Origin: Candidatus Hydrogenedentota bacterium
Lineage (GTDB): Bacteria > Hydrogenedentota > Hydrogenedentia > Hydrogenedentales > JAGMZX01
NCBI GenBank assembly: GCA_029556545.1
Contig: JAKQEQ010000133.1
Span: 1 to 7,161 of the forward strand
DNA length: 7,161 nucleotides
Direction of reading: 5' to 3'
Shown here: in pieces, positions 1 through 7,161 of the stretch
Numbering within the stretch: position 1 is the stretch's first letter
Layout of the letters: every line of letters starts with the position of its first letter
Program-made: the position numbers and the translations under genes
The notes under the pieces: model-generated
The model's database searches: none
The model's input: only the letters and a program-made list of their open reading frames with translations
Told to the model about the DNA's origin: nothing

Positions 1-738
1 CGTGGCGTAGGTGCAGCAGCATGTGAACTGGCTGACCGTACGCATACAAATAATCTGGATCCGCAGATAAGCATCGGAGAAGGTGAAGGAGAAGGTGAAG
101 GTGAAGGTGAAGGTGAAGGTGCGGCACCTGAACCTCTGAGCATCGTAGCGCATCCCAGCAATGCCGCAGTCTACGAGGGCGCGTCACACACGTTCAGGAT
201 CGTGGTGGCAGGCGGGGTGATCTCAATAGAATATGACTGGAAGAAGGACGGCGTAACTCTCGGCGCTCCCAGCCAGGCAACATATTCAATCGCCTCCGCG
301 ACTCAGGATCACGCCGGGACCTATCGCTGCACCGTTTCAGATGAGATGACGTCACTTGAGTCCAACGAAGCGGTTCTAACCGTATTTGAACGCCCCCTGG
401 GAGGGAGCCACACGGCGGACCAGGACGGTGACTTCCTTATTGCTCTGACGGAGTTGCTTCGAGTCATCCAGTTCTTCAACTCGAGCGGATTCCATTGCGC
501 TGACGATCCGGGAAGCACGGAAGACGGCTACGTGCCCGGTCCGGGGGCGAATGAGTCCTGCGACCAGCACGCGAGCGACTACGCACCGCACAATTGGCGC
601 ATCGAACTGACCGAGTTACTCCGCGTCATCCAGTTCTACAATTCCGGGGGCTACCGTCCGTATTGCGGCACGGAGGACGATTTCGCGCCCGGCCCCGGTG
701 TCAGCCAACCTTGCGAGGCGGAAGGGGCGAAGCGTTGA
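1..738 (+). CDS. C-terminal part of a secreted/surface modular protein: Gly-Glu linker, Ig-like domain, two EF-hand-like ELLRVIQF modules (5' partial)
   Basis: The reading frame is open from the first base and ends with TGA at 736-738, giving 245 residues; the start lies upstream of the window. An internal ATG is not needed, because the frame reads continuously through the linker into the Ig domain. Seen in order: residues 26-40 are an alternating Gly-Glu linker. Residues about 42-122 form an Ig-like domain with the core Trp80 and the hallmark DHAGTYRC at 103-110; the usual first core Cys is missing. Residues 140-245 hold two related modules centred on ELLRVIQFFN (151-160) and ELLRVIQFYN (205-214), each followed by a TED..PGPG stretch and a Cys. 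The first module has an EF-hand-like loop, D140-x-D142-x-D144 with Glu151 at position 12, so calcium binding is plausible. From memory, such C-termini close large exported proteins in Hydrogenedentota. The function of the whole protein cannot be told from this fragment. Its base composition is visibly less GC-rich than that of the genes downstream. Confidence 0.85.
   Translation, partial: RGVGAAACELADRTHTNNLDPQISIGEGEGEGEGEGEGEGAAPEPLSIVAHPSNAAVYEGASHTFRIVVAGGVISIEYDWKKDGVTLGAPSQATYSIASATQDHAGTYRCTVSDEMTSLESNEAVLTVFERPLGGSHTADQDGDFLIALTELLRVIQFFNSSGFHCADDPGSTEDGYVPGPGANESCDQHASDYAPHNWRIELTELLRVIQFYNSGGYRPYCGTEDDFAPGPGVSQPCEAEGAKR
76..120 (+). repeat. Hexanucleotide tandem repeat coding for a (Gly-Glu) linker
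   Basis: About seven and a half copies of a six-base unit (GGTGAA, with GGA as an alternative Gly codon) are read in frame as Gly-Glu dipeptides, residues 26-40 of the partial surface protein. The linker separates whatever lies upstream from the Ig-like domain. A repeat whose unit is a multiple of three can change in copy number without breaking the frame, so linker length may vary between strains; that is inference. It has no spacers and is not a CRISPR array. Confidence 0.9.
418..720 (+). repeat. Internal duplication: two EF-hand-like ELLRVIQF modules
   Basis: Residues 140-187 and 193-238 of the partial surface protein are two diverged copies of one module. Their cores share LTELLRVIQF, an aromatic residue and Asn-Ser, with a 54-residue offset. 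The tails share TED, then PGPG, then a Cys, with a 51-residue offset. The first copy keeps an EF-hand-like DxDxD loop. In the second, the DYAPHNWRIELTE stretch takes its place, with fewer acidic ligands. The DNA of the copies has diverged at many third positions, so the duplication is old. The arrangement resembles dockerin-type paired calcium loops, but it is not a canonical dockerin. Confidence 0.75.
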
Positions 739-1623: not shown

Positions 1624-4584
1624 GTGGCCGAGGAAAAACAGCGTGACCCGCCGAACGGCGAGGAACAGCCGGAAGCAGCCGCGTCGAACGACGACCCGGC
1701 TGCGGATCGTTCCGATGCGCCCGGCACCGCAGCGGAAACCGACGCGGCGCCGACGCCGCTCGACATCGAGGGTCCGGCCACTGTGGCGCCGGGAGAAACC
1801 GCGTCGGATAGGGAGATTCCCGATGCGGCGGCGGAGGCCGACGCCCGGTTGGGCGTCGATGACCTAGAGGCGCTCCTTACCGCTGTCGAGGGAAAGACGC
1901 GCGGCGGTCCCACGCTGGACGATAGCGAGGAAGGCGGGCCCATCACACAGGATGTGCTCGATGCGCTGATCGCCGAGATGACCGCGTTGGAAATGCCGGC
2001 GGCGCCGGAATCGGTCTCCGCCCCGTCGTTTGCCGAATTGGAAGACGATGAGCCGCTCGACGACAAGCGCATGGAGGACGCGCTGACGGCGCCCGGTCCC
2101 GAGGCCGTGACGGAACCGCCATCGGCGGCGCTGCCTCCCGTCTCGACGCCGGCGGATACAACTCCCGCCGAGGCGGCCGTATCGGATGCGATATCCGCGC
2201 CTTCGCCGGACGACGCCGCTCCGGTTGCGCCCGTGGCTCCGACTCCATCGCCGACGTCGGCGGAAGATGCAGGCCTGCTTTCCCAGGCTGACCTGGACGC
2301 CCTTATCGAGCAGGCGCTCAAACAGGACAGCGAGCCGCCCTCGGCAGAGGCGCCGCCGCCGATCGTCGAAGGCGCGATACCTGAAACGGCGCCCGAACCA
2401 ACACGCGAGGCAGCGCCCAAATCCCCTGCCCATAAGCCGCCCGGCGCGGTCGGCGTCTGGATTCAACAGTACTTCCCGCGACTGGCCGCGTCGTTGATTG
2501 TCGGGTTGATGGCCGCGATGGGCACGTTCACCCTCTTGTACCGACACCAGGAGCAAGTTCCCGACCTTGCCGCCCTCGGCGCGCCTGAAGCGACACAATC
2601 CATAGAAGAGGCGCTGGTCCTGGCGCGGGAATGTTTCGCCGCGGGGGCCTATGGCGAAGCGGTCCAGATGCTCGATGAAGCGCTGGCAACGGCGCCGCCC
2701 GGCGCGCCGCGTGTGGACGCGGCGTATCTGCGCGTCGAGGCGCGCTACCGGTTACTGTCGGCGGACGCGGCGCGGCCGGACCTCGATGCCGTAATCACGG
2801 AAATCGACCGGGCCGTCGAGGGGGCGCGCACCCATGCCAAGGCGCCCGAAGCCCTGGCGTGGAAGGCCGAACTCTACGAGCGCATGGGCAACCTCTCGGC
2901 GGCGCAGGCAGGCTATGAGCACGTGGTCGCGTATTACGCGGATGCGCCCAACGCGGACGCGGCCTTGTTCCACGCCGCGCGCATCGCGCTGGCCCGCAAG
3001 GAGGCGCGCGACAGCGTCGACTTCGCCCGGCGGCTCCTCCAGCAGTTCCCGAACTCGCCCCGGACCGACGAGGCGGAGATGCTCATCGCGGACGCCTACG
3101 CGCTCACCGGGATGACCAGCGAGGCGCGAACCCTTTACGCGCGCACGGCGCAGGAAGTCCCGAGCACGCCGATGGGCGCGCAGGCTTACTTGCGGCTCGG
3201 CGAGATGGCGCTACGGGACGGCGACTTCGAGGCGGCGATCCGCTACTTCGAGTCGCGCCTGCGAACCGCCACGACGACAGCGGGCAACGACCGGGTCCAT
3301 CTCCAACTCGCGCGGGCCTACCGCGCGGCGGGCCGCATCGAGGACGCGCGCAACACCCTGAACGACCTCATCAACTTCTTCCCCGTCGGCGAGGTCACGC
3401 CGCACGCCTTCGTCGAACTGAGCCAAGTGCTCGATGCGCTGGGCCGACGCGATGAAGCCGTTCAACTCGCACTGCAGTCCGCCGCGCGATTCCGGGACAA
3501 CCCGGCGGTGCTTCGCAACGCGGGCGAACTCCTCGGCCTCGCGGGGCGGCCCGGTCCCGCGGCGGAGATGCTGGTCGCCGCCGACGAGGCCGGCGCGGGC
3601 GACCCCGCCCTGCTTATCGCGGCGGGACGGCACTTTCGCACGGCGGGCCGCATCGAGGAGGCGTTCGCCGTTTACGAGCGGGTGCGCAGTCGCTATCCGC
3701 GCGCGCCGCAGGCCGTCACGGGCGGCATCGAGGGCGCGGCGGCTCTGTATGATCTGGGCCGCGTCTCCGAGGCTGTGGACCGCCTCGAAACGCTTGCCAA
3801 AACCACCGCGGGCACGCCGCATCATCTGGCCGCCGTTACCGGTCTCACGCGCATTTATCAGGCGCTGGGGCTGCGCCGGCGGGTTACCGAACTCGCGCAG
3901 GAACTCGCGGGGGCCTCCTCCGAGCCGGAAATCCTCGCTCAGGCCGCCCTCGACCTCTTCCGCGCGGACGCCGTCGATGCGGCGCGCCAGTTGTCCGAGC
4001 GTATCGACTTGACGCGCCTCAAGAACGACACCGCATATGCGCTTCTTACGGCGGAAGGCGCGGCGCTGACCGAGTCGGACCCGCTCCGCGCGGTCGAGAA
4101 ACTCGAGACCGCCGCGTTGAGTTACGCCGACGCCCGCAAGCCGGAAGGCGACGTGGCGTTGTTGCGGGCGTATCTCCGCACGGACCGCCGCGCGGCCGCA
4201 CGGCGCGTGGTCATGGAGCTGGACGGCCACGTGCGCGCGCAGCCGGTGGATGCGCCGTGGCTGGCGAAGGCGGCGGTCGTATGGGGCGATCATCTGCTTT
4301 CCATCGGCGACGCGCGAGAAGCCGCGAACGCATACGCGCTGGTCGCGGACATCGACCCCGGTCCCGGCGGCTTTGACAAGGAGACGCAACGAAACCTCGA
4401 CTGGGCGAAGTTCCAGCGGGCGAATGCGCTGCTGGCGCTTCGCGATTACGCCTCGGGGCTCTCCCTCCTCGAGGAGATCGCGCGGTCGACCACGCCGTGG
4501 GCGGCGGAGGCCGCGTTGAAGGCCGAGTACGCGCGGGTCGAGCAACGACTGCGGGGAGCGACCCCGCCGCGCGGACAAGGGTGA
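1624..4584 (+). CDS. Single-pass membrane protein with acidic disordered N-terminus bearing FliM-like LSQxxLDAL motifs and a large TPR solenoid
   Basis: This is a 986-residue protein. The GTG at 1624 is the first possible start after an in-frame stop at 1600-1602 and has a modest GGGA six bases upstream. Residues 1 to about 275 are rich in Ala, Pro, Glu and Asp and look disordered. They contain three short amphipathic motifs: VDDLEALLTAVEG (78-90), ITQDVLDALIAEM (107-119) and LLSQADLDALIEQ (218-230). One membrane helix follows at about 287-306, flanked by R286 and by R307-H308. From about 325 to 970 the protein is a long helical solenoid of TPR-like units, for example A-x-Y-L-R-L-G-E-M-A-L-R-D-G-D-F-E-A-A-I near 519-539 and LARAYRAAGRIEDARNTL near 562-579. 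The most likely topology is N-terminus inside and TPRs in the periplasm. TPR domains bind proteins and have no catalytic residues to find. The gene heads a tight cluster with a helical protein, a histidine kinase and a sigma-54 regulator. Its function is not known; a scaffold linked to motility or signalling is an inference from the motifs and neighbours. Confidence 0.85.
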   Translation: MAEEKQRDPPNGEEQPEAAASNDDPAADRSDAPGTAAETDAAPTPLDIEGPATVAPGETASDREIPDAAAEADARLGVDDLEALLTAVEGKTRGGPTLDDSEEGGPITQDVLDALIAEMTALEMPAAPESVSAPSFAELEDDEPLDDKRMEDALTAPGPEAVTEPPSAALPPVSTPADTTPAEAAVSDAISAPSPDDAAPVAPVAPTPSPTSAEDAGLLSQADLDALIEQALKQDSEPPSAEAPPPIVEGAIPETAPEPTREAAPKSPAHKPPGAVGVWIQQYFPRLAASLIVGLMAAMGTFTLLYRHQEQVPDLAALGAPEATQSIEEALVLARECFAAGAYGEAVQMLDEALATAPPGAPRVDAAYLRVEARYRLLSADAARPDLDAVITEIDRAVEGARTHAKAPEALAWKAELYERMGNLSAAQAGYEHVVAYYADAPNADAALFHAARIALARKEARDSVDFARRLLQQFPNSPRTDEAEMLIADAYALTGMTSEARTLYARTAQEVPSTPMGAQAYLRLGEMALRDGDFEAAIRYFESRLRTATTTAGNDRVHLQLARAYRAAGRIEDARNTLNDLINFFPVGEVTPHAFVELSQVLDALGRRDEAVQLALQSAARFRDNPAVLRNAGELLGLAGRPGPAAEMLVAADEAGAGDPALLIAAGRHFRTAGRIEEAFAVYERVRSRYPRAPQAVTGGIEGAAALYDLGRVSEAVDRLETLAKTTAGTPHHLAAVTGLTRIYQALGLRRRVTELAQELAGASSEPEILAQAALDLFRADAVDAARQLSERIDLTRLKNDTAYALLTAEGAALTESDPLRAVEKLETAALSYADARKPEGDVALLRAYLRTDRRAAARRVVMELDGHVRAQPVDAPWLAKAAVVWGDHLLSIGDAREAANAYALVADIDPGPGGFDKETQRNLDWAKFQRANALLALRDYASGLSLLEEIARSTTPWAAEAALKAEYARVEQRLRGATPPRGQG

Positions 4585-4590
4585 CGCGCC

Positions 4591-5031
4591 ATGCCGCACG
4601 AAGACCTCGTCGCGCGCGTCAAGCGGCACCTCGAACACCAGATAGTCTGGCTGGAAAAGACGCTGCGCAACCTCGAACGCATCGAGCACGACCTCGACGA
4701 AGCGGTATTGGACGAGGTCGCCGAACGCCACGCGCACGACGCGGCGCTCACGGCGCAGTACCTTCGCGAATGCGAGGCGCTGCTGCACGAATGGGGCCAC
4801 GTGGAGGACATCGCCGACGCGGACCGCGAAGAGGTGCGCGCCCTGGCCGACCGCGTCGAGGAGCTGATCGCGAAGGTGACCCGGCGATATGAAGAAGCGG
4901 CGCGGATTGCGGGCGAACGTCTCGACGGTCTGCGCGAAGCCTACGGCGCGCTCCACCGAAGCCGGCAAACCCTGCGGCGATACCGGCCCGGCGGCGACCA
5001 CGAGCCGGGATTCCTGGACAAGAAGGCCTGA
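4591..5031 (+). CDS. Small helical coiled-coil protein, possibly a FlgN-type flagellar export chaperone
   Basis: This 146-residue, highly charged, almost entirely helical protein has no signal peptide and no membrane segment. Heptad-like leucine spacing runs through residues 5-40, 50-67 and 79-130, suggesting a helical hairpin or bundle. The C-terminus switches to a flexible stretch, RYRPGGDHEPGFLDKKA (130-146). Size, helical layout and a tail of the form Y-x-P...F-L-D-K-K-A recall FlgN-like chaperones, which hold hook-filament junction proteins before export, but no single diagnostic residue proves this. The ATG at 4591 lies six bases after the TPR gene's stop, with AAGGG (4577-4581) nine bases ahead, so the two are probably translated from one message. 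A kinase of FleS/FlrB type follows directly, which fits a flagellar role. The gene itself is well supported; the function is a guess from form and context. An unrelated coiled-coil adaptor is the main alternative. Confidence 0.6.
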   Translation: MPHEDLVARVKRHLEHQIVWLEKTLRNLERIEHDLDEAVLDEVAERHAHDAALTAQYLRECEALLHEWGHVEDIADADREEVRALADRVEELIAKVTRRYEEAARIAGERLDGLREAYGALHRSRQTLRRYRPGGDHEPGFLDKKA

Positions 5032-5042
5032 ATCGACATCGC

Positions 5043-6203
5043 ATGACGCCTCACGATCACGATAGCGCCATCGACGTGGCCGCGCTTGCGCAAGCCATGA
5101 GCGCCTTTACCCAGGCGACCTCGACGATGGAGGAGGCCTACCGCCGCCTCGAGGAACGGGTCCAGAGCCTGGACCGTGAACTTGCGGAAAAGAACCGGCG
5201 GCTCGCGCTGACGACCGAGTACCTCACCAGCCTGCTCGAGAGCATCTCGGACGGATGCATCGCGATTGACGCCGCCGGCGCGATCACCCACTTCAACCAC
5301 GCCGCCGGCAGTATCCTCGGATACGGTCCGGACGACATGATCGGCCGTGATTTCGCACAAGTGTTTGGCCGCGACTTCTTCCAGCCCAGCATCCCCGGCG
5401 TCACGCATCTGCGCGCCAAGAGCGGGCGGCCCGTACCCGTGAACGAACGCAACTCGCCCATCGCGGACCGCCAGAACCGGCGGCTCGGCCACGTAAAAAC
5501 GTTCCAGGACCTCAGCGAAATCATCGCGTTGCGCGAGCAAATGCGCCAAGTCGATCGGCTCGCCGCCATCGGCGAGATGGCGGCGTCTGTCGCCCATGAA
5601 ATCCGCAATCCGCTCGGCGGCATCCGCGGCTTCGCCGCCTTGCTCGCGCGGGACATCCCCGAAACCGACCCGCGCCACAGACTGGTCGAGAAGATCATCG
5701 CCGGGACGGAGAGTCTCGATCACGTCGTCAACGAACTACTCGAATACACGCGCCCGGTCGAGTTGCGGCTTCGCCCAACACCGTGCGCGGACGTCGTCAC
5801 CGCGGCCCTGACGTTTATCGACCTTGGCGCGAAGGATGTAGCGATGCGCAACGAGGTCGATCGAGGATTGAAAGTCCTGGCCGACCCCGAGAAACTGCGT
5901 CAAGTGTTTCTGAATATCCTGCTGAACGCCGTGCAGAGTATTGACCGGGCGGGGGAAGTCCGCGTGCGCGCGGATGCGGACGAACGCTTCATCACCGTGA
6001 CCATCGAGGATACCGGTTGCGGCATGACGCCTGAACAACGTGACCGCATCTTCTCGCCCTTCTACACCACGAAAGAAAAAGGCACCGGCCTCGGGTTGGC
6101 GGTGTCGCTCAAGATTGTCGAAGCCCACGGCGGCGCCATCGAGGTTGCCACGGAACCGGGCCGGGGCGCCGCCGTGTCGGTGATCCTGCCTCGGGCCGAA
6201 TAG
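5043..6203 (+). CDS. Soluble PAS-domain sensor histidine kinase (FleS/FlrB/AtoS-like)
   Basis: This 386-residue protein has no membrane helix, so it should sense a cytoplasmic signal. A coiled coil spans about residues 25-60 (MEEAYRRLEERV onward). A PAS domain at about 61-160 starts with YLTSLLESISDG and includes the FNHAAGSILGY segment. The HisKA domain has the H-box AHEIRNPLGG with the phospho-acceptor His185. The ATPase domain has an N-box with N291 and N295, the G1 box DTGCG (323-327), the F-box FSPFYTTK (337-344) and the G2 box GTGLG (347-351). All catalytic motifs are intact. A TM-less coiled-coil plus PAS sensor next to an NtrC-type regulator matches FleS and FlrB, the kinases that switch on sigma-54 flagellar genes. 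General NtrB/AtoS-like kinases are the alternative. The ATG at 5043 is 11 bases after the preceding stop but has no clear ribosome-binding site; Val12 or Met19 could be start points, with no better signal. Translational coupling may explain the weak start. Confidence 0.9.
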   Translation: MTPHDHDSAIDVAALAQAMSAFTQATSTMEEAYRRLEERVQSLDRELAEKNRRLALTTEYLTSLLESISDGCIAIDAAGAITHFNHAAGSILGYGPDDMIGRDFAQVFGRDFFQPSIPGVTHLRAKSGRPVPVNERNSPIADRQNRRLGHVKTFQDLSEIIALREQMRQVDRLAAIGEMAASVAHEIRNPLGGIRGFAALLARDIPETDPRHRLVEKIIAGTESLDHVVNELLEYTRPVELRLRPTPCADVVTAALTFIDLGAKDVAMRNEVDRGLKVLADPEKLRQVFLNILLNAVQSIDRAGEVRVRADADERFITVTIEDTGCGMTPEQRDRIFSPFYTTKEKGTGLGLAVSLKIVEAHGGAIEVATEPGRGAAVSVILPRAE

Positions 6204-6235: not shown

Positions 6236-7161
6236 ATGTCCAGATACCGCGTCATGGTAATCGACGATGACGAACTCATGCGCGAATACGTCCACGAGGC
6301 GATGACGCGCGCCGGACACGACGTCGACGCGGCCGCAAGCGGCCCCGAAGCCCTCGCGCGCATGGAAACGACCGCCTATGACGTCGCGATCACCGACCTG
6401 AAGATGGCGCCCATGGACGGCCTCGAAGTGCTGCGCCGGGTCCGCGCCGCCGGCCCTGACACCCAAGTCATCGTGATGACCGCCTACGGCACCATCGAAA
6501 CCGCCGTCGCCGCCCTCAAGGAAGGCGCCGCCGATTACATCCTGAAGCCCTTCACGCCCGACGCCCTCGAGGTCGCCGTGGACCGCTGCCTCGAGCGCGC
6601 GCGTGTCGCCCGCGAGAACCGCTACCTCCGCGATGAGGTCGATGCTCGCTACGACTTCGGCGCCATGGTCGGCGACAGCCCGGCCATGCGCGCCGTCTAC
6701 GAGCAGATTCGCAAAGTCGCCGACAGCCGCGCCACCGTGCTCATTCGCGGCGCAACGGGCGTCGGAAAGGAACTCGCCGCCCGCGCCATCCACTTTGCCG
6801 GCGCACGGCGCGACAAGCCCTTCATCAAGGTGAATTGCGCGGCGCTGAGCGCGGGCATCCTAGAAAGCGAACTCTTCGGCCACGAGAAGGGCGCTTTCAC
6901 GAGCGCCCATGACCGGAAGATCGGGCGTTTTGAACTCGCAGACACGGGTACACTGCTCCTCGACGAGGTGAGTGAAATTCCGGTCGATCTCCAGCCCAAG
7001 CTCCTGCGCGCTCTTCAGGAACGCGAATTCGAACGCGTCGGCGGCAACACGCCCATCCAGGTCGACACGCGCATCGTGGCCACCTCGAACCGCGACCTCG
7101 AATCCGCCGTCCGGGAAGGCAAATTCCGCGAAGACCTCTTCTACCGCCTCAACGTGGTGGT
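6236..7161 (+). CDS. NtrC-family sigma-54-dependent response regulator, receiver plus AAA+ domain (3' partial, GAFTSA variant)
   Basis: Translating from the ATG at 6236 gives 308 residues open to the window end. GGAG at 6226-6229 sits six bases ahead and supports the start. The receiver domain (about 4-120) has the acidic triad region D10-D12, phospho-acceptor D54, T82 and K104. The AAA+ domain begins near VGDSPAMRAVYEQI (145-158). It has Walker A as GATGVGKE (172-179), the sigma-54 contact loop as GAFTSA (219-224) where GAFTGA is usual, GRFELAD (230-236), Walker B as LLLDE (240-244), a sensor I region VATSNRDL (281-288) and FREDLFYRLNV with the arginine-finger candidates R298 and R304. The family hydrolyses ATP to open sigma-54 promoters once phosphorylated, here presumably by the kinase encoded 32 bases upstream. 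The LLLDEVSE and SNRDL wording resembles FleR and FlrC more than NtrC proper, pointing to flagellar control, but target genes cannot be read from here. The rest of the AAA+ domain and the expected DNA-binding helix-turn-helix lie beyond the window. Confidence 0.92.
   Translation, partial: MSRYRVMVIDDDELMREYVHEAMTRAGHDVDAAASGPEALARMETTAYDVAITDLKMAPMDGLEVLRRVRAAGPDTQVIVMTAYGTIETAVAALKEGAADYILKPFTPDALEVAVDRCLERARVARENRYLRDEVDARYDFGAMVGDSPAMRAVYEQIRKVADSRATVLIRGATGVGKELAARAIHFAGARRDKPFIKVNCAALSAGILESELFGHEKGAFTSAHDRKIGRFELADTGTLLLDEVSEIPVDLQPKLLRALQEREFERVGGNTPIQVDTRIVATSNRDLESAVREGKFREDLFYRLNVV
6890..6907 (+). other. Codons for the GAFTSA loop (variant of the GAFTGA sigma-54 contact motif)
   Basis: The codons GGC GCT TTC ACG AGC GCC encode G219-A-F-T-S223-A224. 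The glycine normally found at the fifth position is Ser, encoded by AGC at 6902-6904. The surrounding ELFGHEK and GRFE signatures are intact, so this is a real substitution within an otherwise normal domain and not a frame error. Confidence 0.9.

Follow-up and report, generated by a model that had tools for sequence, protein, structure and literature searches.

Does a membrane protein encoded at this locus carry, in several copies, the short peptide through which FliM binds CheY, and if so, what would dock there? The window, by which we mean the whole stretch of DNA analysed, is an entire contig of 7161 bases (C147) from a draft genome of 6.1 Mb that is 96% complete. On its plus strand the tail end of an Ig-domain protein comes first, then a gene of the YhhN family, then a close-packed cluster of four genes:

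1624..4584, plus strand: gene of the membrane TPR protein that carries the motif array (ORF with a GTG start, 986 aa; Pfam TPR families)
4591..5031, plus strand: 146-aa coiled-coil protein with three helices, a probable FlgN-type export chaperone (Pfam FlgN among orthologues)
5043..6203, plus strand: PAS histidine kinase of the AtoS/FlrB/FlgS type (Pfam, NCBIfam; synteny)
6236..7161, plus strand: sigma-54 response regulator, truncated by the contig end (receiver and Sigma54_activat domains)

In NCBIfam/Pfam-type model searches the FlgR and FlbD models matched the sigma-54 regulator at 6236. The upstream Ig-domain protein (window 1-738), likely secreted, contains a GEGEGE repeat and two LTELLRVIQF(F/Y)NS repeats.

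An AlphaFold2 (AF2) model of the window TPR protein, built on a 40-orthologue alignment, divided it into three parts:

1624..2448, plus strand: acidic disordered N-terminus, residues 1-275, predicted cytoplasmic (AF2 pLDDT mostly <50)
2449..2544, plus strand: lone membrane-spanning helix, residues 276-307, with a hydrophobic core at 287-305 (hydropathy peak, AF2 helix)
2602..4551, plus strand: TPR superhelix, residues 327-976, predicted periplasmic (AF2 pLDDT mostly >90; Pfam TPR)

Across the orthologues the N-terminal tail had a net charge of -0.14 per residue, and Lys plus Arg beside the membrane helix stood at 4.2 on the N side versus 1.8 on the C side, with the N side the richer in 39/46 orthologues. 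Because Arg and Lys are enriched on that side of the helix, we predict that the array is cytoplasmic and the TPR domain periplasmic. The window TPR protein had no match to the FliM domain (PF02154), and a Foldseek search with its TPR domain returned mostly generic, unrelated TPR superhelices. Within the tail, three islands resembling the FliM peptide were found:

1855..1896, plus strand: island 1, VDDLEALL at residues 78-85 (nucleotides 1855-1878); predicted helix 78-91 (AF2; score 10.9)
1939..1989, plus strand: island 2, PITQDVLDALI at residues 106-116 (nucleotides 1939-1971); predicted helix 109-122 (AF2; score 23.6)
2275..2331, plus strand: island 3, LLSQADLDALI at residues 218-228 (nucleotides 2275-2307); predicted helix 221-236 (AF2; score 25.8)

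These are the three peptides that an earlier note had placed on the ORF at 1624-4584, and each was confirmed at its residues and coordinates. The model contained exactly three helices ahead of the membrane helix, one at each island, the remainder of residues 1-275 being disordered; the note's view of the islands as the sole ordered segments of a tail of about 275 residues is thus borne out, each being a short predicted helix inside a disordered segment. By a position matrix built from all array copies, the window's own included, the next-best site in the whole window protein scored only -0.8. Island 1 was the weakest and lacks the Gln; its counterpart in the congener is LHLEDIEALI, while that of island 2 is VTQEVLDALIAEMTAL. 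Island 3 is membrane-proximal, lying 68 residues ahead of the membrane segment, and in many orthologues the last island lies 55-108 residues ahead of it.

A weak fourth match proposed in the same note, DDKRMEDAL (residues 146-154; nucleotides 2059-2085), was rejected as an island, being non-helical in the AF2 model and scoring below the listed sites. It may instead belong to a possible separate motif, PLDxxD(M/L)(D/E)xxL, seen by eye at window 2044-2094 and in L055, L060, L068, L069, and L083. A regular expression for PLDxxDMD mainly retrieved the islands again and did not separate the two, and the motif therefore remains an impression.

The known FliM motif is LSQxEIDxLL (PMC5677366), and islands 2 and 3 of the window protein have this consensus together with its contact residues. 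In E. coli, the FliM residues that contact CheY are L6, Q8, I11, D12, L14, and L15 (PMC3774744), and these correspond to the near-invariant array positions L1, Q3, (I/L)6, D7, L9, and (L/I)10; array positions 4 and 8, which vary, are outside the contact table of that paper. Over all copies the array consensus was L-S-Q-(D/S)-(D/E)-(L/I)-D-A-L-(I/L). The FliM proteins of array-bearing genomes start mostly with MADILSQ(D/E)EVDLLL, and that of the window genome, on contig C142, has the motif LSQDEVDLLL. When a matrix was built from the arrays only, the FliM N-terminal motif was the best site in 28/28 FliM proteins, with scores of 17.9-20.3 and a second-best FliM site of at most 5.2, and kinase, regulator, chaperone, and TPR-domain sequences mostly scored low. 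Two high scores with this matrix, in the regulator of L084 (inside the sigma-54 domain) and the kinase of L058, were judged to be chance, as single cases.

Of the phylum's 68 genomes, 46 had an orthologue of the TPR protein, and we examined 46 N-termini from 45 genomes, one genome having two copies and one orthologue without an N-terminus (L085) being left out. The core pattern [LIVMF]xQxx[ILVM][DEN]x[LI][LIVMF] matched 178 times in these N-termini versus 0.075 expected from composition-preserving shuffles, a ratio that is descriptive because the pattern was written after inspection of the sequences. The excess of core motifs is far beyond chance. At least one was found in 43/46 N-termini and at least two in 34/46, with three orthologues having no strict core motif; by the position matrix the islands numbered 0-18 per protein, with a spacing that was often 28-33 residues. 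Together with the FliM match in 28/28 proteins, these counts uphold the proposal of a multi-copy, FliM-type motif in the disordered tail of a membrane TPR protein.

The number of islands grows through tandem duplication, and the islands are evidently held by purifying selection while, as judged from substitution patterns, the linkers drift. Between neighbouring tandem copies, pN/pS was 0.10 for islands and 0.56 for linkers. Between the window protein and that of its congener, pN/pS was 0.32 for islands, 0.80 for linkers, and 0.24 for the TPR domain, with identities of 73%, 29%, and 78%, respectively, the island figures resting on 30 codons. Selection on the islands, which had been argued from their order alone and for which equal drift of islands and flanks was the alternative, thus has direct support. 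Based on these data, the TPR protein carries a real, conserved, selected, and multivalent array of FliM-type peptides.

Several observations were made alongside. Of five sites with the core pattern in the window's own genome, the convincing ones were in FliM and the TPR protein, and the other three, in unrelated or doubtful frames, were rejected; across the phylum the pattern gave scattered matches among the matches listed. A search for related loci among the contigs of the genome gave one locus. One genome (G025) has two near-identical TPR genes, L070 and L078, each on its own contig, with a one-island difference between their arrays; either recent duplication or the assembly could account for the pair. 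In G022, two more motif matches lie right at the beginning of another contig (G022:C281:29-150), with 99 bases between them, and are probably the missing part of the array whose protein runs off its contig end in that genome. A second conserved tail motif, (V)GSEN(L/I)AAA, had 35 matches in 33 orthologues (e.g. L044, L051, and L065) versus 0.19 expected, and is not in the window protein.

The distribution of the TPR protein followed that of FliM. Both it and FliM were present in 43 of the 68 genomes and neither in 19, with 3 + 3 discordant (Fisher p 6e-11, taking the genomes as independent and uncorrected for phylogeny), and 5/6 of the discordant genomes were under 90% complete. The gene order TPR protein, coiled coil, kinase, regulator recurred in most loci; no regulator was found beside the kinase in L043, L048, or L044, the last of which is truncated by the end of its contig. 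The last two genes make up a pair of the FlgS-FlgR/FlrB-FlrC type, namely a PAS kinase with a sigma-54 receiver regulator, and the flagellar cluster that goes with such a pair was seen in three genomes of a distant lineage (L143-L145), in which a shorter TPR homologue in the same gene order is followed by flgB, flgC, fliE, and fliF. The 146-aa protein scored 16.2 bits against PF05130 (FlgN) in the window (cut-off 30.5), FlgN was the commonest Pfam match among the coiled-coil orthologues (7/20, best E 1.9e-4), and the syntenic protein of L145 scored 32.5 bits versus the cut-off of 30.5; a fold search gave nothing significant, with FliT and a FlgN structure listed at E 0.5-0.6. The protein is probably a FlgN-type chaperone, and gene content and context mark the TPR protein as flagellum-linked. 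In the distant homologues of L143-L145, whose N-terminus is short, no motif array was seen, which looks like either a gain in the phylum of the window or a loss in the distant lineage. Because these homologues keep the TPR protein and its operon without the array, the array is not the basic function of the TPR protein.

Whether CheY itself is bound depends on the chemotaxis genes, and here the locus departs from the simplest expectation. Searches of the window's genome and of its congener (G000 and G001, each 96% complete) for CheA, CheW, and MCP (PF02895, PF01584, PF00015) gave 0 matches, so that no classical chemotaxis system was found in the window's genome, FliM being present; G037, of another family, likewise had none of the three and kept the array. 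The FliM of all three genomes has the CheY-binding motif, and on gene content they apparently combine flagellar motility with a lack of chemotaxis. Since the array persists in these genomes, it outlives chemotaxis, and the islands stay constrained between the window's genome and the congener. Copy number did not rise significantly with the presence of chemotaxis (p 0.14). In genus g22, a genome without CheA or CheW had 3 core motifs versus 8, 12, and 17 in the others (n=4, one cut at a contig end), a difference that is suggestive only. The docking of CheY proposed earlier therefore stands as to flagellar context and motif match, but in the window organism a chemotaxis CheY is weakened as the partner because CheA, CheW, and MCP are absent there and in the congener.

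In chemotaxis-bearing relatives the situation is different. A CheY with Tyr106, Lys109, and Lys119 was encoded near CheA in 8/9 such genomes examined; none lay within the flanks of the short CheA loci L121-L130, and these proteins were found in larger stretches of the 8/9 genomes. A fitting partner therefore exists, and we propose this canonical CheY as the natural one in those relatives, where it would bind the array. The window's genome has 71 receiver matches in total, and the few short receiver ORFs examined there included no canonical CheY. In the genomes without chemotaxis, it would appear, either the array docks some other CheY-fold protein or something else also reads the FliM motif.

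From these sequence comparisons we infer, as the reading that is on balance probable, that the array is a membrane-anchored, multivalent dock that mimics FliM and receives a CheY-fold receiver. The TPR protein would sit in the inner membrane in association with the flagellum, with a cytoplasmic tail, one helix, and a periplasmic TPR superhelix. Each island would become a short, amphipathic helix lodged in the receiver's alpha4-beta5-alpha5 groove, as the FliM N-terminus does, and the array could concentrate the receiver at the motor, hold it back, or compete with FliM for it. In the window's genus the partner would be another receiver, outside classical chemotaxis. A more specific and tentative form of the docking model makes the array a sponge or antenna that gathers CheY-fold proteins at the motor and is tunable by copy number, in which tandem duplication of the docking peptide would set the amount of receiver retained, and which, where CheA, CheW, and MCP have been lost, would serve a chemotaxis-independent receiver acting on FliM.

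The alternative that survives best, albeit an unlikely one, is that the array binds a flagellar partner other than a receiver, such as a rotor or export component, which reads the FliM N-terminus for assembly or anchoring. It would account for the retention of the FliM motif in genomes without detected CheA or CheW, the window's included (LSQDEVDLLL), for islands that remain constrained between two chemotaxis-less genomes, and for an array whose presence follows FliM. The conserved array positions, however, coincide with the CheY contacts, and the searched literature yielded no non-receiver protein that binds the FliM motif.

The receiver encoded in the same cluster, at 6236, had been named as a candidate partner, and the array might tether this sigma-54 regulator at the membrane until a flagellar checkpoint frees it, feeding the kinase-regulator pair in the manner of FlrD. 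The compact operon of TPR protein, FlgN-like protein, kinase, and regulator suits such a tether, as does the precedent of FlrD, an inner-membrane protein proposed to inform FlrB, the flagellar kinase of the Vibrio sigma-54 cascade, as its membrane partner (PMC3930126), and the receiver does have equivalents of Asp13, Asp57, Thr87, Tyr106, and Lys109 in 33/33 sequences. Against this, the position of CheY Lys119, which pairs with the motif Asp (PMC3774744), is Ala in 30/33, and the residues at positions 91, 92, 95, and 99 are not those of CheY either; because of these groove changes the operon receiver is disfavoured as the partner. Moreover, the distant lineage has the kinase-regulator pair and a TPR neighbour without the array, and the three loci in which no regulator was found beside the kinase are likewise hard to reconcile with a tether. 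We regard it as quite improbable. FlrD and the window protein share an inner-membrane location, but FlrD has signal-transduction membrane-protein domains and no TPR superhelix with a motif array (PMC3930126).

A convergent likeness to FliM, with the islands serving as amphipathic helices that self-associate or touch the membrane, is very unlikely; the hydrophobic positions 1, 6, 9, and 10 and the low-complexity setting would allow it, yet amphipathicity leaves Gln 3 and Asp 7 unexplained, the islands are acidic, and the match to FliM is specific. A chance or low-complexity artefact, which the Ala-rich, acidic composition might suggest, has a negligible probability given the shuffling result, purifying selection on the islands, and AF2 helices at the islands only.

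The CheY-binding peptide is known in single copy from FliM (and FliY), with a related form in CheZ. The latter, the C-terminal CheY-binding peptide, is acidic and amphipathic with a Q..(V/I)D.LL core, and is carried singly by a phosphatase; the window TPR protein had no match to a CheZ-like domain. The array and the FliM motif are alike in consensus, contact residues, disordered flank, helix, and linkage to flagellar genes. In contrast, FliM has one copy at its extreme N-terminus and belongs to the soluble C-ring, whereas proteins of the window type have up to 18 copies in the membrane-anchored tail of an unrelated TPR protein. In Caulobacter, the Cle CheY-like proteins read the FliM motif under c-di-GMP control (PMC5677366), which sets a precedent for partners that act independently of classical CheA signalling, Cle being a reader and not a carrier of the motif. 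One candidate relative of the TPR domain is the PflA/PflB-type scaffold, made of TPR proteins in the periplasmic part of the Campylobacter flagellar motor; in the Foldseek list, which unrelated TPR superhelices dominate, this scaffold (9hmf_K) was at rank 13, with TM-scores of 0.21-0.26. The FliM motif was already known; its multiplication on a TPR carrier was described nowhere in the papers searched, which were largely open-access ones.

If the docking model is true, the TPR protein would connect chemotactic signalling with the motor through an additional node whose copy number can evolve. An array that runs through the phylum would be a natural system for the effects of multivalency on CheY control of switching, and the window's genus, which has the motif on FliM and in the array without a detectable chemotaxis core, can reveal other readers of the FliM N-terminus.
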